This document shows positions 11,937 to 46,050 of a stretch of DNA of 64,000 nucleotides, in pieces. The stretch's first letter is position 1, and every line of letters begins with the position of its first letter. Location: positions 1-64,000 of the forward strand of contig JBBFKQ010000005.1 of the NCBI GenBank assembly GCA_037481935.1. The letters run 5' to 3'. The position numbers were made by a program, and so were the translations under genes. The notes under the pieces are model-generated. The model made no database searches. It was not told where the DNA came from and saw nothing but the letters and a program-made list of their open reading frames with translations. Origin of the DNA: Aquificaceae bacterium. GTDB lineage: Bacteria > Aquificota > Aquificia > Aquificales > Aquificaceae.

Positions 11937-11944
11937 AAGGGTTA

Positions 11945-11950
11945 ATTATA
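11945..11950 (-). promoter_or_regulatory. TATAAT box before grpE, containing the aspC stop codon
   Basis: On the minus strand TATAAT occupies 11950-11945; the TAA stop of aspC is 11948-11946, and eight bases separate the box from the grpE ATG. No -35 or Shine-Dalgarno site is evident. If used, the mRNA would be leaderless or nearly so. Confidence 0.5.
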
Positions 11951-13133
11951 GCATGCCCTTCAGGCTTTCAAGTGCCTTGCTGAGCCTCCCTATACCTTCC
12001 TCAATTATGTTTTCAGAAATGCAGTAAGATAGCCTCATGTATCCCTCTGCACCAAAGGCTGAGCCGGGAACCCCAGCAACCCTTCCCTTTTCTATGAGAT
12101 AGTCTGCAAGTTTTATGTCAGAGCCAAGCTTTTCAGAATAGTGCCTCAGGTTGGGAAATATGTAGAAGGCTCCCTTTGGCTTTACTACGCTTATGTCTGG
12201 AATTTTTTTCAGGAGCTCGTATGCAAGGTCTCTCCTCCTCTCAAAGGCTCTTTTCATGTTATCTACAAAGGCTTTAGAGTGTGGGTTTCTGAGGGCTTCA
12301 AGGGCTCCATACTGGGCAAAGGTGGTGGCGTTGGATATGCTCTGGCTGTTGAGGTCTGCTATAACCTTTGCGTATCTCTCAGGGCAGGCAACATAGCCAA
12401 TCCTCCAGCCTGTCATGGAGTAAGTTTTTGAGAAGGCGTTGACGGTGAAGGTTATGTCTCTTATATCCTCTGAAAAACTTGCAGGACTTACGAATTTTTC
12501 CCCATCGTATAGGAAGGCCTCATAACATTCGTCTGAGACTATGAGTATACCATTTTCAAGGCAGAGCTGTGCTATTTTTCTCTGTTCTTCCTCCGGAACA
12601 ACTGCACCCGTAGGGTTTGAGGGTGAATTGAGTATAAGCATTCTGGTTTTTGGAGTGATGTGTTCTTTCAGGACCTCAGCCCTGAGAACAAAGCCTTCTT
12701 CTTCCCTTAGTGGCACTTCCACCACCTTTGCATCGCAGAGCATGATCTGCTCCGGATAGGTTACCCAGTAGGGAGATGGGAGGAGGACCTCATCACCCTC
12801 TTCAAGAACTGCAAGCATAACCAGAAAAAGTGCCATCTTTGCTCCGGCGGTGACCACAATCTCAGAAGGTTTGTATTCAACGCCATTTTCCCTGTGGAGC
12901 TTTTCTGCAAGAGCCTCTCTCAGCTGGGGAATTCCCGCAGAAGGTGCATACTTGGTTTTACCTTCCTTCAGTGCCCTTATACAGGCTTCCTTAACAAACT
13001 CTGGTGTATCAAAGTCCGGTTCTCCGGCACCAAAGCCTATTATGTCCACACCCTGAGCTTTGAGCTGGTTTACTTTGGCGGTGAGGGCAAGGGTGGGAGC
13101 CGGCTTTATGTGGGATACTCTTCTTGCAAGCAT
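11946..13133 (-). CDS. aspC: Aspartate/aromatic-type aminotransferase, class I
   Basis: PLP-dependent transaminase of 395 residues in subfamily I-gamma, typical of thermophilic aspartate aminotransferases. The PLP lysine is in NAFSKTYSMTGWRIGY, the pyridine-nitrogen aspartate in VSDECYEAF, and the substrate-binding arginine in MRLSYCIS. It links oxaloacetate to aspartate, feeding asd and lysA elsewhere in the window. Specificity towards aspartate over other 2-oxoacid partners or prephenate cannot be decided from sequence alone. It lies 8 bp after surE. Confidence 0.88.
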   Translation of the reverse strand: MLARRVSHIKPAPTLALTAKVNQLKAQGVDIIGFGAGEPDFDTPEFVKEACIRALKEGKTKYAPSAGIPQLREALAEKLHRENGVEYKPSEIVVTAGAKMALFLVMLAVLEEGDEVLLPSPYWVTYPEQIMLCDAKVVEVPLREEEGFVLRAEVLKEHITPKTRMLILNSPSNPTGAVVPEEEQRKIAQLCLENGILIVSDECYEAFLYDGEKFVSPASFSEDIRDITFTVNAFSKTYSMTGWRIGYVACPERYAKVIADLNSQSISNATTFAQYGALEALRNPHSKAFVDNMKRAFERRRDLAYELLKKIPDISVVKPKGAFYIFPNLRHYSEKLGSDIKLADYLIEKGRVAGVPGSAFGAEGYMRLSYCISENIIEEGIGRLSKALESLKGML

Positions 13134-13140
13134 AGGAGCT

Positions 13141-13146
13141 ATTATA
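13141..13146 (-). promoter_or_regulatory. TATAAT box before aspC, containing the surE stop codon
   Basis: Minus-strand TATAAT at 13146-13141 encloses the surE TAA (13144-13142); seven bases (13140-13134) lie between the box and the aspC ATG. No Shine-Dalgarno site. Confidence 0.5.
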
Positions 13147-13894
13147 ACCTGAACCTTTCCTTCAAATACTCCATTGCCCTGTAGTTTGTGAGGTCAAGCT
13201 GAAGGGGTGTTATGGAAACATAGCCATGATATACTGCCCAGTAGTCTGTGCCTTCTTCTAAGTGCCATCCAAATTCCTCCGCCGTTATCCAGTATAGGGG
13301 TCTCCCAGAGGGGTCCGAGAGCCTGAGCACCTTTTCCTTGTATGCCCTTCTGCCCTGGCGGGTGAGCATAAAGCCCTTTATGTCTTCACTTGGGAGGTTT
13401 GGTATGTTTACGTTAAGATAGGTATCTTCTGGCATTCCCCTTTCAAGAACCCTGAGGACAACCTCCCTTGCCACCCTTGCCACCTCAGAAAAGTCCACCT
13501 CATCCCTCCCAAAGGCGGAGAAAGCTACAGAGGGAATGCCCAGAATCCTGCCCTCCATGGCACCGGACACTGTTCCCGAGTAGGTTATGTCCTCTCCCAG
13601 GTTTGGTCCCTCGTTTATGCCAGAACATACTAGGTCTGGCTTTCTTCCCTCAAGGAAAAGATAATAGCCAAAATGAACGCAGTCCGCAGGAGTGCCACCT
13701 ATAACAGTCCAGAAGTCCTCATCCACCCTTCTTATTCTCAGAGGCTGAGTAAAGGTAAGAGAGTGTCCAACACCGCTGAGATTTCTGTCTGGAGCAACGG
13801 TTATCACCCTTCCGAGGTTTTTTAACTCCTCTCTGAGGGCTCTGATGCCTTCTGAAAAATAGCCATCATCGTTGGTGAGCAGGAAGGTTGGCAT
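13142..13894 (-). CDS. surE: 5'/3'-nucleotidase SurE
   Basis: Metal-dependent nucleoside-monophosphate phosphatase for survival and nucleotide housekeeping. The hallmark LLTNDDGYFSEGIRAL is at the N terminus, with the SGTVSGAMEG and CSGINEGPN loops that complete the active site. The 250 residues are full length. It diverges from the DnaC-like gene across only 17 bp, and its own start codon is seven bases from a TAAAAT box. Confidence 0.95.
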   Translation of the reverse strand: MPTFLLTNDDGYFSEGIRALREELKNLGRVITVAPDRNLSGVGHSLTFTQPLRIRRVDEDFWTVIGGTPADCVHFGYYLFLEGRKPDLVCSGINEGPNLGEDITYSGTVSGAMEGRILGIPSVAFSAFGRDEVDFSEVARVAREVVLRVLERGMPEDTYLNVNIPNLPSEDIKGFMLTRQGRRAYKEKVLRLSDPSGRPLYWITAEEFGWHLEEGTDYWAVYHGYVSITPLQLDLTNYRAMEYLKERFRL

Positions 13895-13911
13895 TGCCTA
13901 TATTTTATCCA
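13895..13911. promoter_or_regulatory. Overlapping divergent -10 boxes, surE / DnaC-like gene
   Basis: The 17-bp gap holds TATATT on the plus strand (13899-13904, seven bases before the ATG at 13912) and TAAAAT on the minus strand (13907-13902, seven bases before the surE ATG). The boxes overlap, so only one polymerase can bind at a time. Confidence 0.5.
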
Positions 13912-14559
13912 ATGGAGTGCCCAAAGTGTGGTGGAACGGGCTTTGTGGACAGGGGAGGTGTGCTTGAGCTCTGCAGTTGCAGGTATGAGGGGGTAAACCT
14001 TCAGAAGCACCTGAACATACCGCCAAGGTTCACAGAGGCGGAGTTTGAAAATTATGTCCCGGTTTCACCTTCACAAAAAAGGGCTCTTGAAGCCTGTATG
14101 CACTACGCCTATACCTTTGAGCCAGAGGAAGGTAAGGGTCTGACGCTGGTGGGACCTCCACAGATGGGAAAGACACATCTCGTGGTTGCGGTTCTGAAAA
14201 CAGTTTACAGAAATAAGAGGATAAGGGGCTTTTTCTTTGATACCAAGGACCTTTTCTACAGGCTTCAGAGCTATGCAAACACGGACAAATACCACCGCTT
14301 TATGAACCTTCTTCTGAATGCGCCCCTTCTTGTGCTTGATGACCTTGGGAGCGAAAGGCTTTCTGACTGGCGTATAGAAACCCTTTCCCACATAATCAGC
14401 CACAGGTATAACTTTTTGAAGAGCACCCTCATAACCACGAACTACCCACTTCTCAGACAAAGGGAGGATGAGGTGGCAAGAGCCATGGAGGAAAGGCTTT
14501 CTCCTGCCATAGTGGGGAAAATCCACCAAATGACTGAGATAATCTATCTGAGCAGCTAA
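13912..14559 (+). CDS. DnaC/IstB-like AAA+ ATPase (replicative helicase loader type)
   Basis: A 215-residue protein with an N-terminal zinc-finger-like segment (CPKCGGTGFVDRG, then CSCRYE) followed by an AAA+ core: Walker A GPPQMGKTHL, Walker B LLVLDDLGSE, sensor 1 TLITTNYPL and an arginine near the C terminus (EERLSPAIVG). This arrangement is that of DnaC/DnaI helicase loaders. No transposase is adjacent, which argues against an IstB transposition helper. The start at 13912 is chosen because a TATATT box lies seven bases upstream and the alternative at 13888 would overlap surE. Confidence 0.82.
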   Translation: MECPKCGGTGFVDRGGVLELCSCRYEGVNLQKHLNIPPRFTEAEFENYVPVSPSQKRALEACMHYAYTFEPEEGKGLTLVGPPQMGKTHLVVAVLKTVYRNKRIRGFFFDTKDLFYRLQSYANTDKYHRFMNLLLNAPLLVLDDLGSERLSDWRIETLSHIISHRYNFLKSTLITTNYPLLRQREDEVARAMEERLSPAIVGKIHQMTEIIYLSS

Positions 14560-15209
14560 AGGAAAAGCGCAAGCACCAGAGCCGGCATAAGGTTAAGAAC
14601 ACTTACATGCTTTAAAACCTCAAGAATTTTCAGAGAGGTAAGAACCATAAGACCACCTCCCGTGAAAAGGGCGTTTGCCATTGCTTGCTCCTTCAGAAAC
14701 TCACCATAAAAAAAGGCGAGAAGGGTTATAGAACCCTGAAAGAGGAGAACATAGAAAGCCGAAAGGGCAACGCCTTTGCCAAGGGAAGAGGAAAGAACTA
14801 TGGAAGAGAAGCCATCCATAAAGGCCTTTGAAAGTATCAGCGAGCTGTCACCCTTTGCTCCTTCAAGAATGCAGCCCATAAGAGTCATGGGTCCAACGGT
14901 AAAGAGCAGGGAAGCGGAAACAAAGCCCCTGGCAATATCCGATGGTCCCCGTGTAATCCCTTCGAGCCTTTCCTCAAGCCTGAGAAAGCTACCTATAAGA
15001 GAGCCCACCACAAGAAGGAAGAAAACCTTCAAGAGCTCTGGTTTGTTCTCTGAGATTAGCTTCAGCCCAAGAAGCAGTGTAAAAAGCCCTATACCCTGCA
15101 TTATAGATGTTCTGAGCCTCTCAGGAATGGCTCTTGATAAGCTAATGCCAACGAGACTGCCGGCGAGCACAAGCCCTGCGTTCACAAGGGTTCCAAAGGT
15201 GGGGAACAT
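14556..15209 (-). CDS. DUF554 family inner-membrane protein
   Basis: A 217-residue, very hydrophobic protein with about six or seven predicted membrane helices and the family's N-terminal glycine-rich segment (TLVNAGLVLAGSLVGI) and central GPMTLMGCILEGAKGD. It belongs to the DUF554 (YdfK/YqgA) family, of unknown transport function. The ATG overlaps the stop of the glycosyltransferase gene by one base, so the two are co-translated. The last 4 bp overlap the converging DnaC-like gene. Confidence 0.8.
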   Translation of the reverse strand: MFPTFGTLVNAGLVLAGSLVGISLSRAIPERLRTSIMQGIGLFTLLLGLKLISENKPELLKVFFLLVVGSLIGSFLRLEERLEGITRGPSDIARGFVSASLLFTVGPMTLMGCILEGAKGDSSLILSKAFMDGFSSIVLSSSLGKGVALSAFYVLLFQGSITLLAFFYGEFLKEQAMANALFTGGGLMVLTSLKILEVLKHVSVLNLMPALVLALFL

Positions 15210-16411
15210 CAGCCAGCGCCACTCTGCTGAGCCTGGGAAAGTATATCCTGGAACATGTTATACAGAAACTCAGCCCTCTCTTCGGGGGTGTAGTTCTGAA
15301 TAACCCTTTCTCTTGCCCTTCTGCCTATTTCTCTTGCCTCCTGAGGGTTCTCCAGATAATAGACCACCTTTTCCTCTATATCAGCCCTGTCAAGGGGAAG
15401 ATAGGTTATGACTTCCTGACCGGGGGTAAAGAAGCCTGGCAGGGTTGCCCTGAAGTCTATGAAGGGTGCACTACCCATAAAGGCAACCTCCAGGGGAACA
15501 AAGCCTATGCCGGTGGGAACTGCATGAGGGTAGCTGAGAATGGTCATGGACGACCTTCCAATGAGCTCAAGAGCTTCTTCCCAGCTCTGTATGGGGATGT
15601 GTTCATGACCTTCCCTGAGTTCACCCTCAAAGGCACCCACTATCCTGAGGTTTATGCCCTCGAGAAAGCTCAGAATATACCACCTCTTTCTTGCGGTTGC
15701 ATAGAAACTTATATCGTTGAGAAACCTTATGTAATCCTGAGGGTTTTCCTGACGCCACTTTGTAAACTCTTCCTGAAAGCTCTGGTTGAACATAGAAAGG
15801 ATGTATTCGCCTGCATACAGAAGGTGTGCCTCCGGGTTCCTGAAGAGAAACTCGCCCACTTCAAAGAAATAAGGGACAAAGCCCTCCTTGATGTTCTGGA
15901 CAACCTGCTGGGCGATTATGTTTGGGTCTACTACAGGCCCAAGGAATATGACTTCTATGTCCCTGTCCTCAGAAGGCTCTGGCATCTGCCCAGGGTCCAC
16001 AAAGGGGGTTATGTAATAGGTGCCCCTTTCATGACCCAGAAATCTTAGACTGTCCGCATACTTGAGGTCTGTGACTATAGGAAGGAAGTTGTTTGACTGC
16101 CGCAGGTCAAGAAGGACAGGGAAGTGAAAGAGAGGTTCGTCGGTAAAGAGGCTCACATGCACAAAGCCAAAGGCGTCAAAAACCGGAAGCTTCTGACCCT
16201 CTCTCTCTCCAAAGACCACACAGCTACCGTTAAGGTCAAGGGTAAAGAGGGGGGAGAATTCCAGAAGCCTATTTACCACATCCTGAAGCTCTCCTTCCAT
16301 AAGGTCAAAGTCCTGAACCTCTGCACCCCTCTCTCTGAAAAGCTCCATAAATGCCAGCATATGTCTGTTAATTCCAAGGTCCTTTCCCTGTCTCAGAAAG
16401 GCTATTCTCAT
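15209..16411 (-). CDS. CgeB-like glycosyltransferase-fold protein
   Basis: A 400-residue soluble protein. The N-terminal half opens with a Rossmann-like strand (MRIAFLRQG) and the C-terminal half resembles a GT-B donor domain (group 1 type), with PHAVPTGIGFVPLEVAFMG and a final helix typical of glycosyltransferases (NPQEAREIGRRARERVI). The overall form is like CgeB/DUF3880 proteins and proteins that glycosylate flagellin or surface structures. Acceptor unknown. It lies 10 bp after the c-di-GMP gene. Confidence 0.6.
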   Translation of the reverse strand: MRIAFLRQGKDLGINRHMLAFMELFRERGAEVQDFDLMEGELQDVVNRLLEFSPLFTLDLNGSCVVFGEREGQKLPVFDAFGFVHVSLFTDEPLFHFPVLLDLRQSNNFLPIVTDLKYADSLRFLGHERGTYYITPFVDPGQMPEPSEDRDIEVIFLGPVVDPNIIAQQVVQNIKEGFVPYFFEVGEFLFRNPEAHLLYAGEYILSMFNQSFQEEFTKWRQENPQDYIRFLNDISFYATARKRWYILSFLEGINLRIVGAFEGELREGHEHIPIQSWEEALELIGRSSMTILSYPHAVPTGIGFVPLEVAFMGSAPFIDFRATLPGFFTPGQEVITYLPLDRADIEEKVVYYLENPQEAREIGRRARERVIQNYTPEERAEFLYNMFQDILSQAQQSGAG

Positions 16412-16421
16412 GGTCTAAAAA

Positions 16422-19400
16422 TCATACCATAGAAATCAATTTCAAAGCCTCTTCCTCGGGCATGGGCTTGCCAAGCAGATAGCCCTGCACATAGGTGCAT
16501 CCCATATCCCGAAGAATCTTCAGCTGTTCCTGGGTTTCCACACCCTCTGCAAGGGTCTCAATGCCAAGGTCGCTGGCAAGCTTTATTAGATTACCTACAA
16601 CCGCCCTCTTTCTGGGGTCTTTTACTATCTCCCTTACAAAGGATATGTCAATTTTTATTTCATCCACCGGCAGGTTTGAAATATATCCAAGTGAAGAATA
16701 GCCTGTTCCAAAGTCATCAAGGGCTATCTTTACACCCGACTCTTTAAGTATAGTTATGTGTTCAATGGCCTTTTCCCTTTCATCTATAAAGACTCTTTCG
16801 GTTATCTCAACTATTACGCTGGATCCCTTTAACTGTTCTGCTATAACTTCTATAAAGCCTCTATCCTTAAAGCTCCTGGCAGATATGTTTATGGATACCG
16901 GCAGCTTGAACTTTTCAAAGAATCTCAGAGCCTCCCTAAGGGCAAAACCTTCAAAACTCCTAAGGTATTTGCTGCTTTCCAGATATTCAACAAAATGCGC
17001 TGGTCCATAAATTTTCCCATCCTTGTCTCTTATTCTCACGAGCGCCTCAAATCCTGCCAGACCAATATCCTCTCCTCTGAAGTATGGCTGATAGTAGAAG
17101 ATGAAGAGGTCTTCCTCCACAGCTCTACTCACAAGGCCTATAGCCAGAGCCGCCTCCTTGACCCTTTCCTCAAATGCTGATTCAAAGAACCTTCTCTCGC
17201 CCTCACCTGCTTTTTTTGCGGAAGACAGGGCTATGCTTGCCTTTTCGTGAAGCTGGTTGAAGCTACTGCCGTCCATAGGGTAGAGGGCTATACCCATATT
17301 CACAGATAACTTCAACCTTTCCCCTTCAAAGTATATGGGTTCGCCAATCACTTCCTCTATCCTGTCTGCAAGTATGATGGATTCCTCCTCTTTGACTATG
17401 GGCATAAAAAGGGCAAATTCATCGCTGGCTACCCTCCCCACCACACCACTCTCTCCAAGTTCATCCTGCAGCCTTTTAGCTATCAGTGAGAGCACCATGT
17501 CACCAACCTGAATACCATAGTTTTTGTTGATAAGAGACATGCCGTAAAGGTCTACAAGGAAGAGGGCACACATCTTCTTCTTATTTATAAGCTCCCCAGC
17601 TTTAAACCTTATGCCGTCAAGGTTCAGAATTCCAGTGGCGGGGTCGTAGAAGGTCAGCTTTTCAACTTCTGAAGAAAGATGAACCTCTCTGGTTATGTCC
17701 CTGCCCACGCTCATAAACTTTACAGTGCGGTTTGGCAGTTCTATGGGGTATATGGTCTGTTCAAGGTAGAATAGCTCACCATCCTTCCTTCTGTTGGCAA
17801 AGGTGGCATGAAATTCTTGTCCAGAAAGTATGGTTTCCCAGAGACTTCTGTAAAAATCCTGCGTGTGGTGTCCGGATTTAAATATTCTTGGATTCTGCCC
17901 GATAAGGTCCTGTCTTGAATAGCCAGAAATCTGGCAGACTGCATCATTCACATAGGTTATAGTTCCATCTCTTTCTGTTATGACAACCCATGATGTGGAG
18001 TTTTCAAGAGCGGACGCGATGAGCTTATTTCTCTGCAGGTCCTCCAGTCTATTCAAGGCAAACTCAAGGTCATGCCTCAGTTCATAAAGCACATCCTTCG
18101 TTTCCTCCTGAAAGTAATAGGGCTCTTCTGCATACATACCAAGAACGTAGACTGTTTCACCCTCCTTTGAAAGTGGAACGGCGCAGGAGGAAAGATAGCT
18201 CCTGCTGAGCATCTCCCTCTTCAGGGCCTCAGCCACATCCAGCTCTGTAGTATCAGGGTTTACGATTATTCTGTTCGCCACGTAAGCTCTGTAAGTTGGC
18301 TCCTCCTCAATAAAAGAGGCTACACTCTCAAGGTATTTTTCACCATCCCCACAATAAGTAACGGGTTTAAAATGCTCCTTTTTATCAGACGCCCCTATCC
18401 ACACAAATCTTATACCCATCTTGCCCACAAGACTATGGCATACTCTCTCAAGGAGCTCTTCCTCGAGAAGCACCTGCGTGATTATCTGATTGACCTCCTT
18501 CAAAAGACCATACAATCTTTCAAGTCTCTTCCTTTTTGTTATGTCCACGAAAAAAACTACACCCGCATAGCTACCTTCATAGAGTATGGTTGAGGAGCTG
18601 ACTATGGTCCATACCAGAGTTCCATCCCTTCTTAAAAGGGGTAGCTCTCCATAATCTATATTTAGCTCTTCTCCTGAAAGCCTTCTCTTTACCACTTTCT
18701 TCACAAACCCCCTGTAGTCTGGATGTATTAGCATATCCACCGCCTGGTAAACATCCATGCCTTTCAACTCTTCAGAAGTATAATCAACCATTTTTAGAAA
18801 GGTCTTGTTTGCGAAGAGCACCTGCTCGCCATAAACAAAAAACCCTATATGTGTAGCCTTTTCAAGAGCCTGAGCGAGGCTTACCCCTGACCAGAGCTTT
18901 AAAAACCTGTCAAAATCCATGTATAGTTTTATGGTTTTCCTTATGTCTTCCTCGTTAGAGGGCTCAAGCTCCTTAAAGGAGAGAAGTGCAGACCTGAGCC
19001 TCTCATACAGTCCAGACCTTACCATGAATATGTGGGATGTATCAAAGATATGGTCCTCTATAATATAGAAACCCTGTTTTTCCTCTTCATCTATCTCATT
19101 CCATGTTTCGTTATACATCACACCAGCATGAACATGACCTTCTTTCAGAAGTTGAAAGACCTCAGGAAAGTTCTTCGTGAAAACAAGTTTAACCCGCTCT
19201 ACATCAAGACCCATGATGGGATATCCTGCAGGCTTCAGGAAGGGTATAGCAACCAGTATGGGTCCCTCTTCTGGAAGTCTGTCTTTTACTACGAGAAAGA
19301 GTCTGTCCCTCTGACCCCTGAACTTTGCCACAGGAAGGTAACCCATCTGGTAAAGCCTTGGAGAGACCAGGGGTCCTGCATAGTAAACATCAAAAAAATC

Positions 19401-19553: not shown

Positions 19554-19642
19554 GATACCTCTTCCCCTTCCTTCTTGCGGGCATTGGTATAAATTTTAAA
19601 CCTTCCTGCCTCTGTCATATACCATCACAGTCATTTAGGTCT

Positions 19643-19648
19643 TATAAT
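19643..19648 (+). promoter_or_regulatory. TATAAT box before gap
   Basis: TATAAT at 19643-19648 lies 11 bases before the gap ATG, with a second AT-rich hexamer TAAAAT at 19651-19656. No Shine-Dalgarno site is seen, implying a leader of only a few bases. Confidence 0.45.
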
Positions 19649-19653
19649 AATAA

Positions 19654-20679
<1,026 letters not shown>

Positions 20680-20681
20680 GC

Positions 20682-20687
20682 TATAAT
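20682..20687 (+). promoter_or_regulatory. TATAAT box for the tRNA-Pro/tRNA-Arg pair
   Basis: TATAAT at 20682-20687 is ten bases before the first base of tRNA-Pro, giving an expected start a few bases before the mature tRNA. No clear -35 is seen. Confidence 0.5.
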
Positions 20688-20697
20688 TTTATATTTA

Positions 20698-20770
20698 CGG
20701 GGTGTAGCTCAGGTGGCAGAGCGTTGGCTTTGGGAGCCAAAGGCCGCAGGTTCAAGTCCTGCCACCCCGA
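20698..20770 (+). tRNA. tRNA-Pro (anticodon UGG)
   Basis: Seven-base-pair acceptor stem 20698-20704 with 20763-20769 (CGGGGTG/CACCCCG), including the C1-G72 pair typical of bacterial tRNA-Pro. D arm with AGCTCAGGTGGCAGAGC, anticodon stem TTGGC/GCCAA around loop TTTGGGA (anticodon TGG) and T arm GCAGG-TTCAAGT-CCTGC. Discriminator A at 20770; CCA is not encoded. The next tRNA begins at the following base. Confidence 0.96.
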
Positions 20771-20844
20771 GGGCCCGTAGCTCAGCTGGACAGAGCAAGG
20801 GATTTCTAATCCCTAGGTCGGGGGTTCGAGTCCCTCCGGGCCCG
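20771..20844 (+). tRNA. tRNA-Arg (anticodon UCU)
   Basis: Acceptor stem GGGCCCG (20771-20777) with CGGGCCC (20837-20843), D arm TAGCTCAGCTGGACAGAGC, anticodon stem AGGGA/TCCCT around loop TTTCTAA (anticodon TCT) and T arm with TTCGAGT. Discriminator G at 20844; CCA not encoded. It reads AGA, the dominant arginine codon in this window. It abuts tRNA-Pro with no spacer and is followed at once by eight T residues and the bioH reading frame. Confidence 0.96.
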
Positions 20845-21459
20845 CTTTTTTTTCTTCACGGATGGGGTTTCAGTTCAAAGGTTCTCAGTGGAATTCCCTC
20901 TGTAGACCTGCCCTATCATGGAAAAAGCCAGCTTTCTTACTCAGACCTCTGGTCCCTGGCAAGGTCTCTGGCTCTGAAGGCAGAAAGTGGTTCTGTTCTG
21001 ATTGGATGGTCTATGGGTGCAAGCCTTGCGCTCATGATGGCTTACCTTTTTCCCGAAAAGTTCAGGGGACTTCTGCTGATAGGTGCATCCCCATGCTTTG
21101 GTTGTGCATGGTCAGAGAAAAACTTGAGGGCCTTTCTGCTGAGACTTGAGAGGGAGAGGGAAGGGTTTTTAAGAGAGTTCAGGTCTCTTGCCTACCCAAA
21201 AGGCTTTGAAGACACTGTGGATATTGAAGGAGCAAAGAGAATTCTCAGGGAATACATGTATACTGACCTGAGACATATCCTTCCATACATAAGACAGAGG
21301 GTTTTAATCCTTCACGGCGAGAAAGACACCATAGTTCCCCTCTCCTCTGCACTTACCCTTTACAACATGCTGAAAAGGTCTAAATTAATAACCTTCCCAG
21401 GAGGTCATTTCCCGGAGTATGAAAATCTTATCTTTGAGGTTCTCAAGGGCTTGCAGTAG
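20845..21459 (+). CDS. bioH: BioH-like pimeloyl-ACP methyl ester esterase; start unresolved
   Basis: Alpha/beta hydrolase with oxyanion motif LHGWGF, nucleophile elbow GWSMGAS, acid in HGEKD and catalytic histidine in FPGGHFPEYE. Followed by bioC with an overlapping start, it fits BioH, which removes the methyl group from pimeloyl-ACP in biotin synthesis. The conserved core LFFLHGWG begins directly after the tRNA-Arg gene. No ATG, GTG or TTG exists between the start of tRNA-Arg and this motif in any frame; the nearest in-frame one is a GTG inside tRNA-Pro (20713), and an in-frame ATC lies at 20809 in tRNA-Arg. I list the frame from the first base after the tRNA. A rare start, or loss of the true 5' end, is possible. 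Confidence 0.8.
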   Translation, partial: LFFLHGWGFSSKVLSGIPSVDLPYHGKSQLSYSDLWSLARSLALKAESGSVLIGWSMGASLALMMAYLFPEKFRGLLLIGASPCFGCAWSEKNLRAFLLRLEREREGFLREFRSLAYPKGFEDTVDIEGAKRILREYMYTDLRHILPYIRQRVLILHGEKDTIVPLSSALTLYNMLKRSKLITFPGGHFPEYENLIFEVLKGLQ

Positions 21460-23481: not shown

Positions 23482-23485
23482 GGAC

Positions 23486-32188: not shown

Positions 32189-32194
32189 AATTTA
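32189..32194 (-). promoter_or_regulatory. TAAATT box before the acyl ligase fusion, containing the yajC stop
   Basis: Minus-strand TAAATT at 32194-32189 includes the yajC TAA stop (32194-32192) and ends seven bases before the downstream ATG (32181). Confidence 0.35.
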
Positions 32195-32540: not shown

Positions 32541-32546
32541 ATTATA
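32541..32546 (-). promoter_or_regulatory. TATAAT box before yajC, containing the upstream stop codon
   Basis: Minus-strand TATAAT at 32546-32541 encloses the TAA stop (32544-32542) of the LytM-like gene; seven bases separate it from the yajC ATG. Confidence 0.5.
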
Positions 32547-34932: not shown

Positions 34933-34939
34933 GATGAGA

Positions 34940-36358: not shown

Positions 36359-36584
36359 CGCTGACCGGAGGTATTATGGCTACCCTCTCTTCTCCCCTCA
36401 GCATGTATTCATCCTCCACATATTCCTCGTTGACCGCAAACTTTACCCTCTGGAGGATGGGTTCAAGCTCCGGGTATTTCTCAATCAGCACTTTTCTGAG
36501 CTCCGCCACCGTTCCCGTGAAGTCAATATCCTCCTCAGACCTTTTGAGCCTCTCCCTCACTATAGCAAAGTAAAGAAGTTTCAT
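36351..36584 (-). CDS. moaD: MoaD-like molybdopterin synthase small subunit / sulfur carrier
   Basis: A 77-residue ubiquitin-fold protein ending in VSGG, the diglycine that is thiocarboxylated to donate sulfur. The MKLLYFAIVRER start and VAIIPPVSGG end are typical of MoaD. No other molybdopterin gene is next to it: it sits between Uma2 genes and a GT9 gene with 4-bp and 8-bp overlaps, so its job could also be another sulfur transfer. Confidence 0.88.
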   Translation of the reverse strand: MKLLYFAIVRERLKRSEEDIDFTGTVAELRKVLIEKYPELEPILQRVKFAVNEEYVEDEYMLRGEERVAIIPPVSGG

Positions 36585-36799
36585 TCTTCCAGCACCTCGG
36601 AGAGTTTTATTTTCAGCTCTGGAAGGAGCTCAAACTCTTCATCAAAGGAGTAGACCTCCACAATGCCCTTTTTGTGAAGAAAAGCCTTTTTGAGCCTTGG
36701 GTCCACAAGCAAAACTCTGTCCACTCCAAAGTCCAGAAGCTCCTGCACTTTTTCCTCCATCTCCGTGTAGGTGTTGGAGGGAGATAGGATCTCTATCAC
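36580..36799. repeat. Direct repeat copy A (3' part of first Uma2 gene)
   Basis: 220 bp that match 37107-37326 at an exact offset of 527 bp with 12 mismatches by eye (about 94-95 percent identity), while the 5' parts of the two genes are much more divergent. Confidence 0.9.
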
Positions 36800-37111
36800 G
36801 AGCTCAGGTGGAGTTTCAAGAACACCCTCTGGCAATTCTCTTAGCCTGTCCCTGCTTATGTAGGCTATGTCCACACCTCGCAAAGTAAGAGGCTCTCTTT
36901 TCAGGACTAATCCCACTTCACCGCAGACTACATGAGCTTTTCTCTTAGCTTTTTGCTTGAGATAATATACCATGCTCGCTTCATACTCACCATGCCATCC
37001 ACCTGTAGGTGCCATTTCCACCACCTCACCCTTGACGATTTCGTAAAGACCATCCGGGAGGTTTCCCTGGACCAGGTCCTGATAGGTGTAGAGCCTCTCT
37101 GCCGTCTTCAT
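36581..37111 (-). CDS. Uma2 family (DUF820) putative endonuclease, copy 1
   Basis: A 176-residue protein of the Uma2/DUF820 family (restriction-endonuclease-like PD-(D/E)XK fold). Visible conserved parts: YEIVKGEVVEMAPTG, DIAYISRDRL, PPELVIEILSPSNTYTEMEEK and GVDRVLLVDP, which supply the acidic and E-x-K-like residues of the site. Biological role unknown; common in cyanobacteria and thermophiles, often in multiple copies. It is a tandem paralogue of the next gene and overlaps both it and moaD by 4 bp. Confidence 0.85.
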   Translation of the reverse strand: MKTAERLYTYQDLVQGNLPDGLYEIVKGEVVEMAPTGGWHGEYEASMVYYLKQKAKRKAHVVCGEVGLVLKREPLTLRGVDIAYISRDRLRELPEGVLETPPELVIEILSPSNTYTEMEEKVQELLDFGVDRVLLVDPRLKKAFLHKKGIVEVYSFDEEFELLPELKIKLSEVLEE

Positions 37112-37326
37112 TCTTCCAGCACCTCGGAGAGTTTTATTTTCAGCTCTGGAAGGAGCTCAAACTCTTCCTCAAAGGAATAAACCTCCACAATACCCTTTTT
37201 GTGAAGGAAAGCCTTTCTGAGCCTCGGGTCTACCAGCAAAACCCTGTCCACTCCAAAGTCCAGAAGCTCCTGCACCTTTTCTTCCATCTCCGTGTAGGTG
37301 TTGGAGGGAGATAGGATCTCTATCAC
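37107..37326. repeat. Direct repeat copy B (3' part of second Uma2 gene)
   Basis: Partner of 36580-36799. The encoded C-terminal 69 residues of the two proteins differ at only two positions, whereas their first 105 or so residues differ at roughly half. Confidence 0.9.
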
Positions 37327-37638
37327 TAAATCGGGAGGCACTTCAAGCATACCTTTGGGTTTTTCCTTGAGCCTTTCTTTGCTTATGTATAGCACATCCA
37401 CCGCCCTTATGGTGAGGGGGTTCTTTCTTATCACAAGCCCCACATCACCCACTGCATAGTAGCCCTTTGTCTTTAGCTTGAGGTTAAAAAGCCAGTAAAA
37501 CCTGCCCTCATAGTCTCCATGTTCAAAGCCCGTAGGTGCCATTTCCACCACCTCGCCCTTGACGATTTCATAGAGCCCCTCTGGAAGTCTGCCCTTTACA
37601 AGGTCTTCGTAAGTGTAAGATTTTTCCTTCACCTGCAT
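37108..37638 (-). CDS. Uma2 family (DUF820) putative endonuclease, copy 2
   Basis: A 176-residue paralogue of the downstream gene with the same motifs (YEIVKGEVVEMAPTG, DVLYISKERL, PPDLVIEILSPSNTYTEMEE). The N-terminal half has diverged (for instance around the FYWLFNLKLKTKGYYAVGD segment), while the C-terminal part is almost the same as in copy 1. It starts 10 bp after purH, behind a TAAATT hexamer that contains the purH stop. Function unknown. Confidence 0.85.
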   Translation of the reverse strand: MQVKEKSYTYEDLVKGRLPEGLYEIVKGEVVEMAPTGFEHGDYEGRFYWLFNLKLKTKGYYAVGDVGLVIRKNPLTIRAVDVLYISKERLKEKPKGMLEVPPDLVIEILSPSNTYTEMEEKVQELLDFGVDRVLLVDPRLRKAFLHKKGIVEVYSFEEEFELLPELKIKLSEVLEE

Positions 37639-37645
37639 GATTATA

Positions 37646-37651
37646 AATTTA
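37646..37651 (-). promoter_or_regulatory. TAAATT box before Uma2 copy 2, containing the purH stop
   Basis: Minus-strand TAAATT at 37651-37646 includes the purH TAA (37651-37649); seven bases separate it from the ATG at 37638. Confidence 0.35.
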
Positions 37652-39166: not shown

Positions 39167-39175
39167 GGAATTAAG

Positions 39176-39181
39176 ATTTTA
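39176..39181 (-). promoter_or_regulatory. TAAAAT box before purH
   Basis: Minus-strand TAAAAT at 39181-39176, nine bases upstream of the ATG. A GGAGGTGTT lies just upstream of the box (39187-39181), too far from the ATG to be a normal ribosome site. Confidence 0.4.
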
Positions 39182-39233
39182 ACACCTCCTGAAGCTATGG
39201 CGAAAAAACAGCTAATGCATATGCTATAAAGTA

Positions 39234-40325: not shown

Positions 40326-41559
40326 GTATGTAGGAGTAGTCTTCTCTTTCCCTTATAACCCTGTAGGAGCCTTTTTCCACAAGCACCTCGCATGCCCTTG
40401 GCCTTACGTTGTAATGGGAAGACATGGCAAAGCCATAAGCACCTGCTGAGAGCACCGCCAGATACTCACCCCTCTCCACAGAAGGTATTTCCCTGTCAAG
40501 GGCAAGAAAGTCTCCCGTCTCGCAGATGGGTCCCACCACATCTGTTTTTATGTATGGTCTGTCTTTTTTCTCTACTGGCACTATGTGATGATACGCTTCA
40601 TACATGGCAGGTCTCACAAGGTCGTTCATGCCTGCATCCACGATAACAAAGTGCTTGTGTCCCTTGTCCTTTATAAATTGGACCTGAGTCAGAAGCACGC
40701 CCGCATTGCCCACCACAGACCTGCCGGGCTCCAGTATGAGCCTCGCCTTTACATCCTTCAGCACCGGCAATATTGCCTCTGCAAGGTCTGAAGGCTCAGG
40801 GTTTGACTGCTCAGGCTTGTATTTTATGCCCAGTCCTCCCCCAAGGTCCAGATACTCTATCTCAAAGCCTGCCTTTAGAAGGTCGTAGTAGAGCTCTACC
40901 ACTCTTTGAGAGGCTTCAATGTAAGGAGAGGTGTCCAGTATCTGAGAACCTATGTGGCAGTGGACACCAACCACCTGAAGGTTTTTCAGTCTGGCTGCAT
41001 ATTCATACTCTGCCTTTGCAGTCTTTATGTCCACACCGAACTTGCTCTTTTTCATGCCCGTTGATATGTAAGGATGGGTCTTGGGGTCCACATCTGGATT
41101 AACCCTTATGGCGATGCGTGCCTTTTTGCCCAGCCTTCCTGCAATTTCGTTGAGCACATCCAGCTCCATAAAGGACTCCACGTTGAACATGAGTATGTCA
41201 GCCTTTATGGCATCCTCCAGTTCGCATACAGTCTTACCCACACCTGCATACACAATTTTTGAAGGTTCAACTCCAGCCCTGAGGCTTGCATAAAGCTCAC
41301 CACCCGACACTATGTCAGCACCTGCACCCTCTTCCTTTGCAATGGAGATAATGTGAGGATTGAAATTTGCCTTTACCGCATAGCAGATAAGAGCCTGAGG
41401 GAAGGCATCCCTGTATGCCCTTATCCTGTCTCTAATGTATGTGCCACTGTAGACATAAAGTGGTGTTCCAAACTCTTCTGCAAGTGCCTTAAGAGATACA
41501 CCCTCAAGGTAAAGCCCTTCCTTTCTGTATTCAAGATAGGGGTTGTATTCTTTTAACAT
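40315..41559 (-). CDS. lysA: Diaminopimelate decarboxylase
   Basis: PLP enzyme of fold type III that makes L-lysine from meso-diaminopimelate. The PLP lysine is K63 in ICYAVKANFNPHI; GAGADIVSGGEL, HCHIGSQ, EPGRSVVGNAG and the CETGDF motif near the C terminus complete the active site. Length 414 is normal. A TATAAT box at 41573-41568 (minus) is eight bases before the ATG. Confidence 0.96.
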   Translation of the reverse strand: MLKEYNPYLEYRKEGLYLEGVSLKALAEEFGTPLYVYSGTYIRDRIRAYRDAFPQALICYAVKANFNPHIISIAKEEGAGADIVSGGELYASLRAGVEPSKIVYAGVGKTVCELEDAIKADILMFNVESFMELDVLNEIAGRLGKKARIAIRVNPDVDPKTHPYISTGMKKSKFGVDIKTAKAEYEYAARLKNLQVVGVHCHIGSQILDTSPYIEASQRVVELYYDLLKAGFEIEYLDLGGGLGIKYKPEQSNPEPSDLAEAILPVLKDVKARLILEPGRSVVGNAGVLLTQVQFIKDKGHKHFVIVDAGMNDLVRPAMYEAYHHIVPVEKKDRPYIKTDVVGPICETGDFLALDREIPSVERGEYLAVLSAGAYGFAMSSHYNVRPRACEVLVEKGSYRVIREREDYSYILRQ

Positions 41560-41567
41560 GGTGGAGT

Positions 41568-41573
41568 ATTATA
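41568..41573 (-). promoter_or_regulatory. TATAAT box before lysA
   Basis: Minus-strand TATAAT at 41573-41568 with eight bases (GTGGAGTA on plus) to the start codon; no Shine-Dalgarno site in the gap that would fit. Confidence 0.5.
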
Positions 41574-41642
41574 ACCCAGAAGGTGAAGGGCTTGCATCTA
41601 TTGTAAAGTATACATATTTTTTAAAAGAAAGGAGGTATAGAA

Positions 41643-42068
41643 ATGAGCCTTAAAAGCTTCGCAAGAAAAGAGGTGATTACACTCAGGCCTGATAACATGG
41701 TTTATGATGCGGTCAGGCTCATGAAGGAGAAAAATGTGGGAAGTGTGGTCATAGTAGACGAGGATAACAAGCCGGTGGGTATAATAACGGACAGAGATGT
41801 GGTTATAAGAGTGGTTTATGATGGACTTGATGTAAAAACCACTCCCCTTGAGAGAGTTATGACAAGGGGGCTTTCCGTTCTTGATGAAGATATGGGACTC
41901 TTTGAAGCCCTCAGGTTCATGAAGGACGAGGGCGTAAGGAGGTATCCAGTGGTAAACTCAGAGGGGAAGCTGACAGGCTTCTTTTCACTGGATGATGTGC
42001 TTTTCCTGCTTGGTAAGGAGCTGGCAGCGGTTGCAGACATAATAGCCAAGGAAAGTCCAAACCTTTAA
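41643..42068 (+). CDS. Two-CBS-domain protein
   Basis: A 141-residue stand-alone pair of CBS domains (about 5-65 and 70-130), with VYDAVRLMKEKNVGSVVIVDEDNKPVGIITDRDVV and a matching second half. Such proteins bind adenosine nucleotides and regulate partner enzymes; the partner is unknown. A strong AAGGAGGT site precedes the ATG. The 3' end overlaps pgsA by 4 bp. Confidence 0.9.
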   Translation: MSLKSFARKEVITLRPDNMVYDAVRLMKEKNVGSVVIVDEDNKPVGIITDRDVVIRVVYDGLDVKTTPLERVMTRGLSVLDEDMGLFEALRFMKDEGVRRYPVVNSEGKLTGFFSLDDVLFLLGKELAAVADIIAKESPNL

Positions 42069-42565
42069 GCCCTTCTCTCAAAGGTGATATACCTGACCGT
42101 ATAGTCATACATGGAAAGGTATGCCAGCAGAAGGGAAATCCAGAGCAGGAAGTTTGCATAGCCGTAGCCAAAGCAGAGGGCTATTAGCGTTAGAAACTCA
42201 AAGAAGGCCTTTGCCTTTCCAATGTAAGATGCAGGCATGGCATAACCCTTTTCCACCGAAAGGCTTCTGAGAAAGGATACAGAGAGCTCCCTCACAAGGA
42301 GTAGAAGGAAGGGCAAAAGCCCAATCTCGTGGCTATAGAGAAAGTAAGAAAGCACACCAAGGACGAAGATTTTGTCTACTAGTGGGTCAAGAAGCATCCC
42401 AACCTTACTCGCCTGATTGTTTCTCCTTGCGAGCCCACCATCCAGCCAGTCGGATATGCCAGCAACTACTACAAGAACTCCAGCAAGGCTTCTTCTGTCT
42501 TCCTCAAGCAGGTAAAGGGTGGGAATGAGAAGAAAAAGCCTGAAAAGGGTTATAAGGAGAGGCAT
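42065..42565 (-). CDS. pgsA: CDP-diacylglycerol-glycerol-3-phosphate phosphatidyltransferase
   Basis: Integral membrane enzyme for phosphatidylglycerol synthesis. The CDP-alcohol phosphotransferase signature is complete: SDWLDGGLARRNNQ followed by GMLLDPLVDK. Four or five membrane helices in 166 residues; slightly shorter than E. coli PgsA. It follows the lipoate-ligase-like gene by 9 bp with a TATAAA box that contains that gene's stop. Confidence 0.9.
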   Translation of the reverse strand: MPLLITLFRLFLLIPTLYLLEEDRRSLAGVLVVVAGISDWLDGGLARRNNQASKVGMLLDPLVDKIFVLGVLSYFLYSHEIGLLPFLLLLVRELSVSFLRSLSVEKGYAMPASYIGKAKAFFEFLTLIALCFGYGYANFLLWISLLLAYLSMYDYTVRYITFERRA

Positions 42566-42573
42566 GCACTTAT

Positions 42574-42579
42574 TTTATA
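42574..42579 (-). promoter_or_regulatory. TATAAA box before pgsA, containing the upstream stop codon
   Basis: Minus-strand TATAAA at 42579-42574 encloses the TAA stop (42577-42575) of the lipoate-ligase-like gene and lies eight bases before the pgsA ATG. Confidence 0.45.
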
Positions 42580-43216
42580 GCAGATTTTTTACCCTATCCA
42601 TGGTGTGTAGCAGATAGCCTTCTGGCACATTCAACTCTCTGAAGGTTATGACCCTTTCCCTGAGCAGGCGGGCATCAATGCCGGTAATTTTCTCAAACTC
42701 CCTGTATTCAAAGTCAACAAAAAGACTTCCATGTACGAGAAAGGCTCTATTGAGCATTCTCATGGCACAGGCAAGAACCTTCCTGCCCCCGAAGGTAATC
42801 TCTCCAAGGGTAGGATAAAAGTAGCAGAAAAAATCTTCATATGCACCCCTGTATCTGCTCATCTCAAATCCCGGATTTATTTCTCTCAGTGCCTGGAGAA
42901 TAAGATTCATAAAGTTTTTGTATATCTTTGTAAAACTGCCACCCCAGCTCTCCCTAAGCCCTGCGTAAGAAAAGGAGATATCCCAGCCATGAAGTAGAGC
43001 ACCACCACCCGTGGGTCTTTTTACCACCGGGATTGGAAGTTGGGGTTCTTCCTGAGAATACCCTACGCTCAGGGTAGGCTCAGCCCATCTGTAAAGTCTA
43101 AAAGCTGGGCTTCCTGTTTTTTCAGCCATCAACAGATTTTCCCAGTCTTTCTCCATGTTCTCCCTTCCTCTCAGGGCTTCAACATAAGATAAATCATAGG
43201 TTTTGGACCTTTCCAC
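42575..43216 (-). CDS. Lipoate-protein ligase / octanoyltransferase family protein
   Basis: A BPL_LplA_LipB-fold protein. The substrate loop is RPTGGGALLHGWDISFSY, the strand GRKVLACAMR replaces the usual NGKKIxGSAQ, and HGSLFVDF follows. A cysteine in FFCYFYPTLGEITFGG resembles the catalytic cysteine of LipM octanoyltransferases, while the lysine of LplA is in GRKV. It could attach octanoate or lipoate, feeding LipA at the start of the window. I use the GTG at 43216 because a TAAAAT box lies seven bases upstream; a TTG at 43249 would extend it by 11 residues into the opposing gene. Confidence 0.75.
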   Translation of the reverse strand: MERSKTYDLSYVEALRGRENMEKDWENLLMAEKTGSPAFRLYRWAEPTLSVGYSQEEPQLPIPVVKRPTGGGALLHGWDISFSYAGLRESWGGSFTKIYKNFMNLILQALREINPGFEMSRYRGAYEDFFCYFYPTLGEITFGGRKVLACAMRMLNRAFLVHGSLFVDFEYREFEKITGIDARLLRERVITFRELNVPEGYLLHTMDRVKNLL

Positions 43217-43234
43217 GGTTAATATTTTAAAGTT
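43217..43234. promoter_or_regulatory. Overlapping divergent -10 boxes, lipoate-ligase-like gene / AAA+ gene
   Basis: Eighteen bases separate the GTG at 43216 from the ATG at 43235. TAAAAT on the minus strand (43229-43224) is seven bases from the GTG; TATTTT on the plus strand (43223-43228) is six bases from the ATG. The boxes overlap. Confidence 0.4.
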
Positions 43235-46042
43235 ATGCGTTTTGTTCAAAAGCTTCTTCGCAGAAAGGAAAGGGAAGAAGAAAAGCTGCTAAAGGTCACA
43301 AGTCCAAAGGGTGAGCTGACCCTCTACCCTGAAGACTTTCTTGAGAAGGACCCGGACGCACGCATAGAGGAGTTCTGGGTGGATGCCATGGATGTTTCCG
43401 AAGATGGATACTGGCTCCTTGTGGGGAGGAGGCACGGACTCCTGCAACTCTATGACTGGAGGGGCAGGATTCACAGACTGCCCTCAAGACCACCAGCTCA
43501 GGTCGTGACAGACATACTCTTTAGAGGCAGATATCTTGCACTCATAACGCCACCTTATCTGGTTGTTTACCTCCTTGAGGATACGAGGAACCCGCAGACA
43601 TGGAAAAGCTTCAGAACCACCCAGGAAGGGCTGAGAGCATCCGCAGGACTTGACCTTCAGGGAAATCTGCTGGCCTATGGCGTTGTGGGCGAGAGAATCT
43701 ATGTTATAGACATATCCGGAGGCTTCGGTTCGGAGGGTCTTGACTTCAAGAGCGCCTTTTCTTACTCAGATGCGCAGATAGGGGAGCTCAGGCTTCTGAG
43801 GTTTATAGGCGGGAATAGACTGCTTCTGTCTGGCACAAAAGGGGTTGCCCTTTATGACCTTGGGGGAAAGTTGCTAAGAAGGCTTGAGCATGCCTCAGGC
43901 AGGGCAGTTCTCCCTCTCAGGGACAGAGTTCTCCTCTCAGAGAACAGGAGCCTTTTCCTTTATGATACACAGCTTGAGGGGCCCCTTCAGAGCCTGAGCA
44001 CGCCCATAAACATAGCCCATGTGGATATGTCTCCAGATGGAGACTTTATCTTCCTTGCAGATGCAGAGGAGAACAGGATGGGGCTTGTTTATATGCCAGG
44101 TTTTGAGTTTATCCACACTTTTGATGGCTTTGGTTACTCGGTTGTGAGAGTGTCTCCTGACGGGACCATATACACCTGTGAATACAGGGATGAAGAGGAT
44201 AGAAGGCTTTACAGCCTGAGAAGTATAAGCACAAACCTTACAGACTATCTTTACGATAGAGACAGGCAGTCTCAAATGGTAAAGAGGGCAGAAGATGAAC
44301 TGAAAAGCCTGAAAAACAGGCTTAGAAAATCAAACAGGCAAGTAGACTTCAAGGAGCTTGAGGAATACAGAAGGCTAATCTCCATGGATGCACCCATAAG
44401 AAAGTTAAGGGAGCTGATACTTCAGGCACAGCAAATGGTGGAGGAGGCAAATTTTGAAGCCTTTGTTAGGGATGTGGAGGAAAGAATAAGGCAAGGCAGT
44501 GTGAGTGCGGAAGACCTGAGGGAGGTGGAGGCAAGGCTAAAACTGGAGGAAGAAGAAAGAGCCAAGAGGCTGAAAGCACTCAAAGAAAGCCTTGAGAACT
44601 ACTTCCAGAAAGCCATGCAGGAACACCTGCAGAGGGTAAGAGAAGCAATAAGCAATCTTCATAGCGATGATGTGAGGGACTTTGAAGCCCTTGAAGAGGT
44701 AAGAAAGGCAAGGGAGTTTATAAATAGACTACCGGGTGCTTTCAGCCAGCAGGGACAATCTCAGCTCCTCAAGATTTTTCAGGAAAAGATACTTCAGGAC
44801 AGGTTAAACAGATACAGAATAAGGATTGAAGATTCAAGGGTGATATTTGGTTCTGAGGACTTTCCCAGGTTTTCCGGGGAAAAAAGGAGGCTCAGGTGGA
44901 GAATAAAGGTGGAGGACAGAGTTATACTTCAGGAAAGGGTTTACGCAAGGGTAGCCTTTGAAAGAGAGGATGGTGTGCTGGTTGAACCCAAAAGATACCC
45001 TAACCTTATTCCTCAGGAGGAGCTGAAGACTCTTCCACTGTGGACAAGAAGATACCTGTCCCACCTTAACGGGCTTTTTTCTTATGAGCCCTACAGGCTT
45101 CCACTCTTTGTCTCCTATGAGGAAACTCCATGGTTTGTAAGGAACCTGGAAAGGTTTGCCTCTCTTTTAAAGGAACAGCTCATGTATTCTGAAGGTATTC
45201 TTATACTTGAAGGAGACGCCGGCGTCGGTAAGAACTTCCTTGTGGAGGTCTTCTCTGCTCTTACCAATAGACCTCTCTACATCATACCCTGCAATTCAAA
45301 AATGGAAAAGGAAGACATAACCTTTGTTTACGAGTTTGACCCCAGAAGGGGGACAAAGAGGGCATACTCAGACCTTGTGAAGGCGCTTCAGACTCCGGGT
45401 GCGGTAATATACTTTGACGAGATAAACACCCTTCCTGCAGGCATGGTAAAGCTCTTCAACCCCCTTTTTGATTACAGAAGATACCTCACCCTTCCCACCG
45501 GCGAAGTCATAAAGGCACAGAGAGAGGTGGTGCTCGTAGGAGGTATGAACCCTCAGCACTATCTTGGAGTTTCAGAGCTCCCGCAGGATATAAAGTCAAG
45601 GGCGGACATTATCTTCATAGACTATCCACCTTTTGAAGATGAGAGGGGTATTTTCCATCCTGACGAGGCAATAATACTCAAGGACCAGGTGCCTGAGCTT
45701 TCACGGCTCAGCCTTGAAGAGTTTCTATACCTCTGGCACTGGGTTGTAAACGGGCTCAGAGTCATGCCTGTTGAAGGACAGGAGGAACTGGAAAGACACA
45801 TCTGGAAAATCTTCGAGCTTCTGAAGATAGCCAATGCAATAAGAAGTGCCTACAGAAGCTACCAGACACAGCAGTCTGAAGAGCCCGTTGACTTTGTGTT
45901 TTCCATAAGGGACACTATAAGATGTGCCAGAAGGCTTAACAGGTATGAGAATGTAAAAAGCCTCGTGCTGGAAACAATACTGCCAAAGGTTGGCTCACCC
46001 CTTGAAAAGGAAATAATAAAAAGCATAGTGGAAAGAGTATAA
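43235..46042 (+). CDS. Beta-propeller / coiled-coil / AAA+ (MoxR-dynein-like) ATPase
   Basis: A 935-residue soluble protein without a known name. Residues about 40-345 look like WD40-type propeller blades (AHVDMSPDGDFIFLADAEEN, VVRVSPDGTIYTCEYRDEED). About 350-540 is a highly charged coiled coil. About 640-935 is an AAA+ domain of the AAA_5/MoxR-dynein type: Walker A GDAGVGKN (about 659-666), Walker B VIYFDEIN (about 722), sensor 1 LVGGMNPQHY and SRADIIFIDYPP. The Walker A lysine is followed by Asn instead of Ser/Thr, which is unusual. Such ATPases often remodel protein complexes with a vWA partner, but none is adjacent. It is followed 8 bp later by the RNase G gene. Confidence 0.75.
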   Translation: MRFVQKLLRRKEREEEKLLKVTSPKGELTLYPEDFLEKDPDARIEEFWVDAMDVSEDGYWLLVGRRHGLLQLYDWRGRIHRLPSRPPAQVVTDILFRGRYLALITPPYLVVYLLEDTRNPQTWKSFRTTQEGLRASAGLDLQGNLLAYGVVGERIYVIDISGGFGSEGLDFKSAFSYSDAQIGELRLLRFIGGNRLLLSGTKGVALYDLGGKLLRRLEHASGRAVLPLRDRVLLSENRSLFLYDTQLEGPLQSLSTPINIAHVDMSPDGDFIFLADAEENRMGLVYMPGFEFIHTFDGFGYSVVRVSPDGTIYTCEYRDEEDRRLYSLRSISTNLTDYLYDRDRQSQMVKRAEDELKSLKNRLRKSNRQVDFKELEEYRRLISMDAPIRKLRELILQAQQMVEEANFEAFVRDVEERIRQGSVSAEDLREVEARLKLEEEERAKRLKALKESLENYFQKAMQEHLQRVREAISNLHSDDVRDFEALEEVRKAREFINRLPGAFSQQGQSQLLKIFQEKILQDRLNRYRIRIEDSRVIFGSEDFPRFSGEKRRLRWRIKVEDRVILQERVYARVAFEREDGVLVEPKRYPNLIPQEELKTLPLWTRRYLSHLNGLFSYEPYRLPLFVSYEETPWFVRNLERFASLLKEQLMYSEGILILEGDAGVGKNFLVEVFSALTNRPLYIIPCNSKMEKEDITFVYEFDPRRGTKRAYSDLVKALQTPGAVIYFDEINTLPAGMVKLFNPLFDYRRYLTLPTGEVIKAQREVVLVGGMNPQHYLGVSELPQDIKSRADIIFIDYPPFEDERGIFHPDEAIILKDQVPELSRLSLEEFLYLWHWVVNGLRVMPVEGQEELERHIWKIFELLKIANAIRSAYRSYQTQQSEEPVDFVFSIRDTIRCARRLNRYENVKSLVLETILPKVGSPLEKEIIKSIVERV

Positions 46043-46043
46043 T
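46038..46043 (+). promoter_or_regulatory. TATAAT box before rng, containing the AAA+ gene stop codon
   Basis: TATAAT at 46038-46043 encloses the TAA stop (46040-46042) of the AAA+ gene; seven bases separate it from the rng ATG at 46051. This predicts a transcript starting at or within a base of the ATG. Confidence 0.55.
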
Positions 46044-46050
46044 AGAGTTA

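Follow-up and report, generated by a model that had tools for sequence, protein, structure and literature searches.

Leaderless transcription in the Aquificae was anticipated by Zheng et al. (2011), who described a TAtaaT signal just upstream of start codons in Aquifex aeolicus (PMC3160421). In that study, where the leaderless signals are predictions, it accompanies 20.7-32.4% of genes among those Aquificae genomes in which it was found (PMC3160421). Data from dRNA-seq of A. aeolicus have been published (PMC4227106). In the Deinococcus-Thermus group, mutation and reporter experiments established that a -10 box located about 6-7 bp before the open reading frame (ORF) is a promoter giving a leaderless mRNA (PMC12340547); the text of that study mentions neither stop codons nor upstream genes. 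In Corynebacterium glutamicum, internal transcription starts give rise to sub-operons (PMC3890552).

Here, we analyse a stretch of 64,000 nucleotides from contig 5 of an Aquificaceae genome of 1.69 Mb in 26 contigs (hereafter the window), in which closely spaced tandem genes share a distinctive junction: the stop codon of the first gene lies inside a TATAAT-like hexamer that precedes the start codon of the second. Judging from sequence, these junctions are very probably compact internal promoters for leaderless mRNAs, in which the -10 box also provides the upstream gene with its stop codon.

Sequence sample and definitions

Genome-wide counts were taken in stretches that together cover 1.26 Mb (75% of the genome; 47% GC). 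In this sample, 1319 genes were called with a codon-context model that makes no use of upstream motifs, and all start codons are those of this gene caller, which was made for the present analysis. A strict -10-like hexamer was defined by T1, A2 and T6 together with at least two of the intervening t-a-a, and a stop was scored as embedded when the stop codon of the upstream gene falls within the hexamer, as TA[TAA]T or [TAA]AAT. The closest named relatives of the window aspC are Aquificaceae MAGs (81-84% amino-acid identity). Homologs of pgsA were left out of the homolog alignments.

Compact junctions in the window

The first-pass annotation had singled out seven tandem gene pairs with near-identical junctions. 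All seven lie where it had placed them, the upstream gene ends in TAA in each case, and the gaps are 8, 9, 8, 10, 10, 9 and 8 bp for surE-aspC, aspC-grpE, M23 peptidase-yajC, yajC-acyl-ligase fusion, purH-Uma2, LplA-like-pgsA and AAA_5-rng, respectively. Its statement that none has a Shine-Dalgarno (SD) site is borne out (0/7), and the gene names it gave agree with the Pfam matches of the junction genes, namely SurE, aminotransferase I/II, GrpE, peptidase M23, YajC, an AMP-binding/PP-binding/acyltransferase fusion, PurH, Uma2, LplA-like, CDP-alcohol phosphatidyltransferase, AAA_5 and RNase E/G. The hexamers are as follows.

13141-13146, minus strand: TATAAT, 7 nt before the aspC start (13133); surE stop TAA (13142-13144) inside
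11945-11950, minus strand: TATAAT, 8 nt before the grpE start (11936); aspC stop TAA (11946-11948) inside
32541-32546, minus strand: TATAAT, 7 nt before the yajC start (32533); stop TAA of the M23 peptidase gene (32542-32544) inside
32189-32194, minus strand: weak TAAATT, 7 nt before the start of the AMP-binding/acyltransferase fusion (32181); its first half is the yajC stop TAA (32192-32194)
37646-37651, minus strand: weak TAAATT, 7 nt before the Uma2 start (37638); its first half is the purH stop TAA (37649-37651)
42572-42577, minus strand: TAAAAT, 6 nt before the start of the pgsA-like gene (42565), with an alternative TATAAA at 42574-42579; LplA-like stop TAA at 42575-42577
46038-46043, plus strand: TATAAT, 7 nt before the rng start (46051); stop TAA of the AAA_5 gene (46040-46042) inside
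16421-16426, minus strand: TATGAT, 9 nt before the start at 16411 (gene 15209-16411); upstream stop TGA (16422-16424) inside

A -10-like hexamer had been claimed at all seven pairs. The claim holds in strict form for five of the seven, with TATAAT upstream of aspC, grpE, yajC and rng and TATAAA/TAAAAT upstream of pgsA. Upstream of the acyl-ligase and Uma2 genes there is only TAAATT, which falls short of the strict motif, and this sequence alone is unconvincing because TAAnnT after a TAA stop requires only one more T. Relatives of these two genes have TAAAAT or TATAAT at the right place: either form occurs in several relatives of the acyl-ligase fusion gene, and Uma2 homologs in other genera have TATAAT 7 nt before the start. 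The TATGAT in the last line had gone unlisted; it is conserved, with its TGA embedded, in a same-genus genome (G011). One more embedded case had been missed at the window edge (gene 63288-64028). Among window pairs with gaps of 7-10 bp, the hexamer is present in 6/8 versus 0.56 expected when the stop is fixed and the flanking bases are shuffled, and none of 5000 shuffles reached six.

Compact arrangements of other kinds also occur in the window. Two tandem Uma2 paralogs (36581-37638), which are 73% identical, overlap by 4 bp, and the genome contains 14 Uma2-like matches. The genes for tRNA-Pro(TGG) and tRNA-Arg(TCT) (20698-20845) abut with zero bases between them.

Genome-wide association of the hexamer with starts and stops

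In the 1.26 Mb sample, TATAAT-like hexamers peak at spacers of 6, 7, 8 and 9 nt before start codons (57, 90, 69 and 50 genes, respectively, versus about nine per position elsewhere). Divergent genes must have promoters, and 141 of the 338 genes with a divergent neighbour (42%) have the motif at this same spacing. At co-directional gaps of 7, 8, 9 and 10 bp the motif precedes 11/13, 8/10, 10/19 and 8/23 genes, a sub-peak within the distribution; it seldom occurs at overlaps or at gaps of 11-13 bp (4/50), where SD sites dominate. The dominant registers of the stop are TA[TAA]T (25 genes) and the [TAA]AAT type (14 genes). The same sub-peak is found in one same-genus genome and in one other genus; in genus g11 (35% GC) the leaderless peak is present, embedded stops are few and the sub-peak is weak.

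The first-pass annotation had proposed a check against shuffled sequence and had named, as a refuting outcome, an equal hexamer frequency at stops that are not followed by a gene; both comparisons came out in its favour. Stops are embedded at 36 of 65 junctions with 7-10 bp gaps versus 37 of 642 control stops having no co-directional gene within 13 bp (55% versus 5.8%, p = 1e-22); for convergent stops the figure is 3/66. The hexamer was observed at 37 of the 65 junctions versus an average of 3.3 over 1000 shuffles with the stop fixed, none of which exceeded 10. Starting from the stops and using no start prediction, we found an ATG 7-10 nt after 22/39 TA[TAA]T stops versus 46/419 other TAA stops (p = 2e-10); this agreement argues against a dependence of the embedded-stop result on the start calls.

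Two classes of initiation signal

The first-pass annotation had suggested two initiation modes in one genome from the contrast with the sox, DsrE-like and CBS genes, to which it ascribed near-perfect GGAGGT sites. Many window genes do have GGAGG-type SD sites, and the genome-wide counts agree with two modes: 288 genes have only the -10-like motif, 477 have only an SD site and none has both, although the two signals are in partial competition for one stretch of sequence. An SD site accompanies 0/38 embedded cases versus 48/67 other pairs with gaps of 7-12 bp (p = 1e-14). Mycobacterial leaderless starts have a preferred cytosine at -1 (PMC4633059); here the -1 base is a pyrimidine, mostly C, in 32/38 embedded cases. 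This resembles the remote leaderless (-10-motif) genes (148/181) and differs from the SD genes (290/477).

A canonical sigma-70 promoter would have a -35 hexamer about 17 bp upstream of the -10 box; no excess of TTGACA was found at embedded or divergent -10-motif genes, and no -35 consensus emerged in any class. A strong extended -10 element was considered and rejected, as TGn is weak (24% of embedded sites versus about 9% of controls). With no -35 consensus and only this weak TGn signal, promoter support beyond the -10 box is absent, although the -35 box is missing from divergent -10-motif genes as well. At 53664-53686, a TATAAT lies 8 nt before the start of the gene at 53686-54273, which overlaps its upstream neighbour by 4 bp; this -10-like box is wholly within coding sequence.

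Divergent pairs with overlapping boxes

The sample contains 31 divergent pairs that are 14-24 bp apart; 15 of them have hexamers for both genes, and three lie in the window.

13895-13911: two divergent start codons 17 bp apart; the -10-like hexamers of the two strands overlap, with no room for a leader or an SD site
58863-58879: two divergent start codons 17 bp apart, with GAGTATAATTATAAGCC in between; the -10-like hexamers of the two strands overlap
62255-62270: two divergent start codons 16 bp apart, with ATTAAAATTTTAGCCT in between; the -10-like hexamers of the two strands overlap

These 14-24 bp spaces hold little besides two overlapping -10-like boxes. Since there is no room in them for a leader, they provide an independent argument for leaderless initiation, and from their sequences they look like minimal bidirectional leaderless promoters.

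Conservation in relatives

Across the family, aspC, grpE, yajC and rng homologs keep the hexamer 6-9 nt before the start despite different upstream genes, and it is also kept where the upstream stop lies 14, 15, 74 or 106 nt away. In grpE relatives, the hexamer is still near the start with the upstream stop 15, 35 or 106 nt away, and in aspC relatives it is kept even if the upstream gene is another one or the stop is distant. The picture is the same for reciprocal best hits in three other genomes, where the hexamer often persists while the stop moves; in more remote genera an SD site is often found in place of the hexamer.

Wherever the two genes have stayed close together, the hexamer usually contains the stop. 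The yajC pair is embedded in 12/12 sampled genus members that keep the pair, with a last codon that is always NTA, and the rng pair is embedded in 9/9 species in which the genes are closely adjacent, with GTA or TTA as the last codon. Altogether, the upstream gene ends in NTA and the stop TAA is followed by T at 27/27 kept junctions, which come from related species and are not independent events. The last residue varies at these junctions through Leu/Ile and Val/Leu exchanges, and only 10% of Leu codons are CTA or TTA. Because the last codon is always NTA, and often a rare Leu codon, it is the DNA motif that is selected. The alignments thus indicate that selection acts on the hexamer as DNA, in which the stop would be a lodger.

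Why stop and box coincide

One account of the coincidence is a passive one, in which the promoter is real and any upstream frame that enters TATAAT or TAAAAT ends there, with neither selection for the fusion nor a joint function. This would explain only why stop and box fall together, and it is compatible with the promoter itself. When random frames are run into the hexamers of -10-motif genes that have no upstream gene nearby, 13% end as TA[TAA]T and 9% as [TAA]nnT, versus 24% and 13.5% observed, so that more than half of the stop-in-hexamer placement is explained by such trapping; in relatives, moreover, the hexamer is retained as stops are gained and lost. Nevertheless, an excess of about 1.8-fold is left for TA[TAA]T, the only register in which the excess is significant (p = 0.002), and, for both the yajC and the rng pair, every sampled relative in which the two genes have stayed close has retained the fused state over the long term. 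From these percentages, the recurrent fusion is mostly a matter of compact packing and a stop-bearing promoter, with a modest TA[TAA]T excess, and we regard the passive account as reasonably probable.

The fusion could instead be a selected regulatory unit, in which a terminating ribosome and RNA polymerase interact at one TATAAT; upstream transcription and translation might, for example, occlude or expose the internal promoter, so that the upstream gene would tune its leaderless downstream neighbour. We consider such coupling improbable.

The junctions might also be read without any promoter, as sites of termination and reinitiation on one operon mRNA, where the ribosome would end at TAA and restart at an ATG 8-10 nt further on, the AT-rich hexamer serving to keep the mRNA unstructured. 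Reinitiation has precedents where stop and start codons lie close together (PMC4633059), and the short stop-start distance would allow it on a longer mRNA. However, the same hexamer at the same spacing precedes divergent genes, which have no upstream ribosome, and it is present in relatives that lack the upstream gene or have its stop far off; furthermore, T1-A2 and T6 are maintained through rare codons. On this indirect evidence, we consider reinitiation quite unlikely as the explanation of the junctions. A composition artefact, by which TAA stops in AT-rich spacers resemble -10 boxes by chance, may explain the individual TAAATT junctions (acyl-ligase and Uma2) but is refuted for the set as a whole by the shuffles (3.3 versus 37 hits), the control stops (5.8% versus 55%) and the scarcity of the motif at gaps of 11-13 bp (only 4/50).

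Proposed mechanism and its significance

In the promoter reading that we favour, the housekeeping RNA polymerase would recognise a -10 box of the TATAAT type whose end lies 6-9 nt before the start codon, the -35 element being rudimentary or missing. The transcript would start at the A of the ATG or beside it, and the resulting leaderless mRNA would be translated without an SD site; initiation at the embedded box would be the main expression route of the downstream gene. Separate transcription of the downstream gene is indirectly supported by relatives in which the hexamer persists although the upstream gene is gone. Since TATAAT holds TAA in one frame and TAAAAT holds it in another, the -10 box would also supply the stop of the preceding gene. 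Stop and promoter would be fused in this compact genome in the manner of the stop/AGGAGG fusions found where the downstream gene is SD-led. For seven window genes, a leaderless promoter with the upstream stop inside it had been proposed; statistics, composition and conservation favour it for at least five of the seven, and two junctions are weak.

If so, co-directional genes with no spare DNA between them can keep separate promoters, a single hexamer serving as terminator codon and -10 box. Genes 8-10 bp apart, usually assigned to a single operon, could then be transcribed separately in leaderless-rich bacteria, so that distance-based operon prediction would be unsafe there. The sequence rule TATAATN(6-9)ATG offers a means of correcting start codons and operons in Aquificaceae.

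Comparison with known systems

A close match is to the TA-led leaderless genes of the Aquificae, in which the motif is the same as here and its position and frequency are similar (PMC3160421). The difference is that only operon-proximal genes were deemed able to be leaderless (PMC3160421), whereas here the motif stands inside co-directional runs and holds the upstream stop.

The Deinococcus-Thermus promoters resemble the candidate promoters at the present junctions in that the -10 box adjoins the ORF. Their motif is TANNNT, often TACACT (PMC12340547), rather than the TATAAT type found here. On the Thermus plasmid pTT27, a TAnnnT that begins with the stop is found at 4/8 junctions with 9 bp gaps versus 22/227 stops overall; these figures are suggestive and come from eight junctions only, and the stop/-10 fusion may also occur in Thermus. 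For the Deinococcus deserti plasmids, taken as an outgroup, tight gene pairs are too few to judge.

The sub-operons of C. glutamicum share with the present case the separate transcription of downstream genes in a co-directional run, the internal promoters here being candidates; in the passages of that report that were consulted, a fusion of stop codon and -10 box is not found (PMC3890552).

A further likeness lies within the genome itself. Stops fused to the SD site (TAAGGAGG, TGAGGAGG or TAGGAGG) occur at 41/49 SD-led co-directional junctions with gaps of 9-13 bp in the 1.26 Mb sample. There too, at a compact junction, the signal that initiates the following gene incorporates the stop, and the frequency of this stop/AGGAGG fusion fits the same economy as the stop/-10 fusion. 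The two differ in that the former is a translation signal on a shared mRNA, whereas the latter would be a promoter element.

The first-pass annotation called the stop-promoter-start unit one that it had not seen described. We found no description of stop codons overlapping the -10 boxes of leaderless genes in the literature searched, from which most subscription journals are absent; leaderless TAtaaT signals in Aquificae, however, were already published (PMC3160421). The distance from known systems had thus been overestimated, and the new part is the recurrent, conserved fusion of the stop codon with the -10 box.
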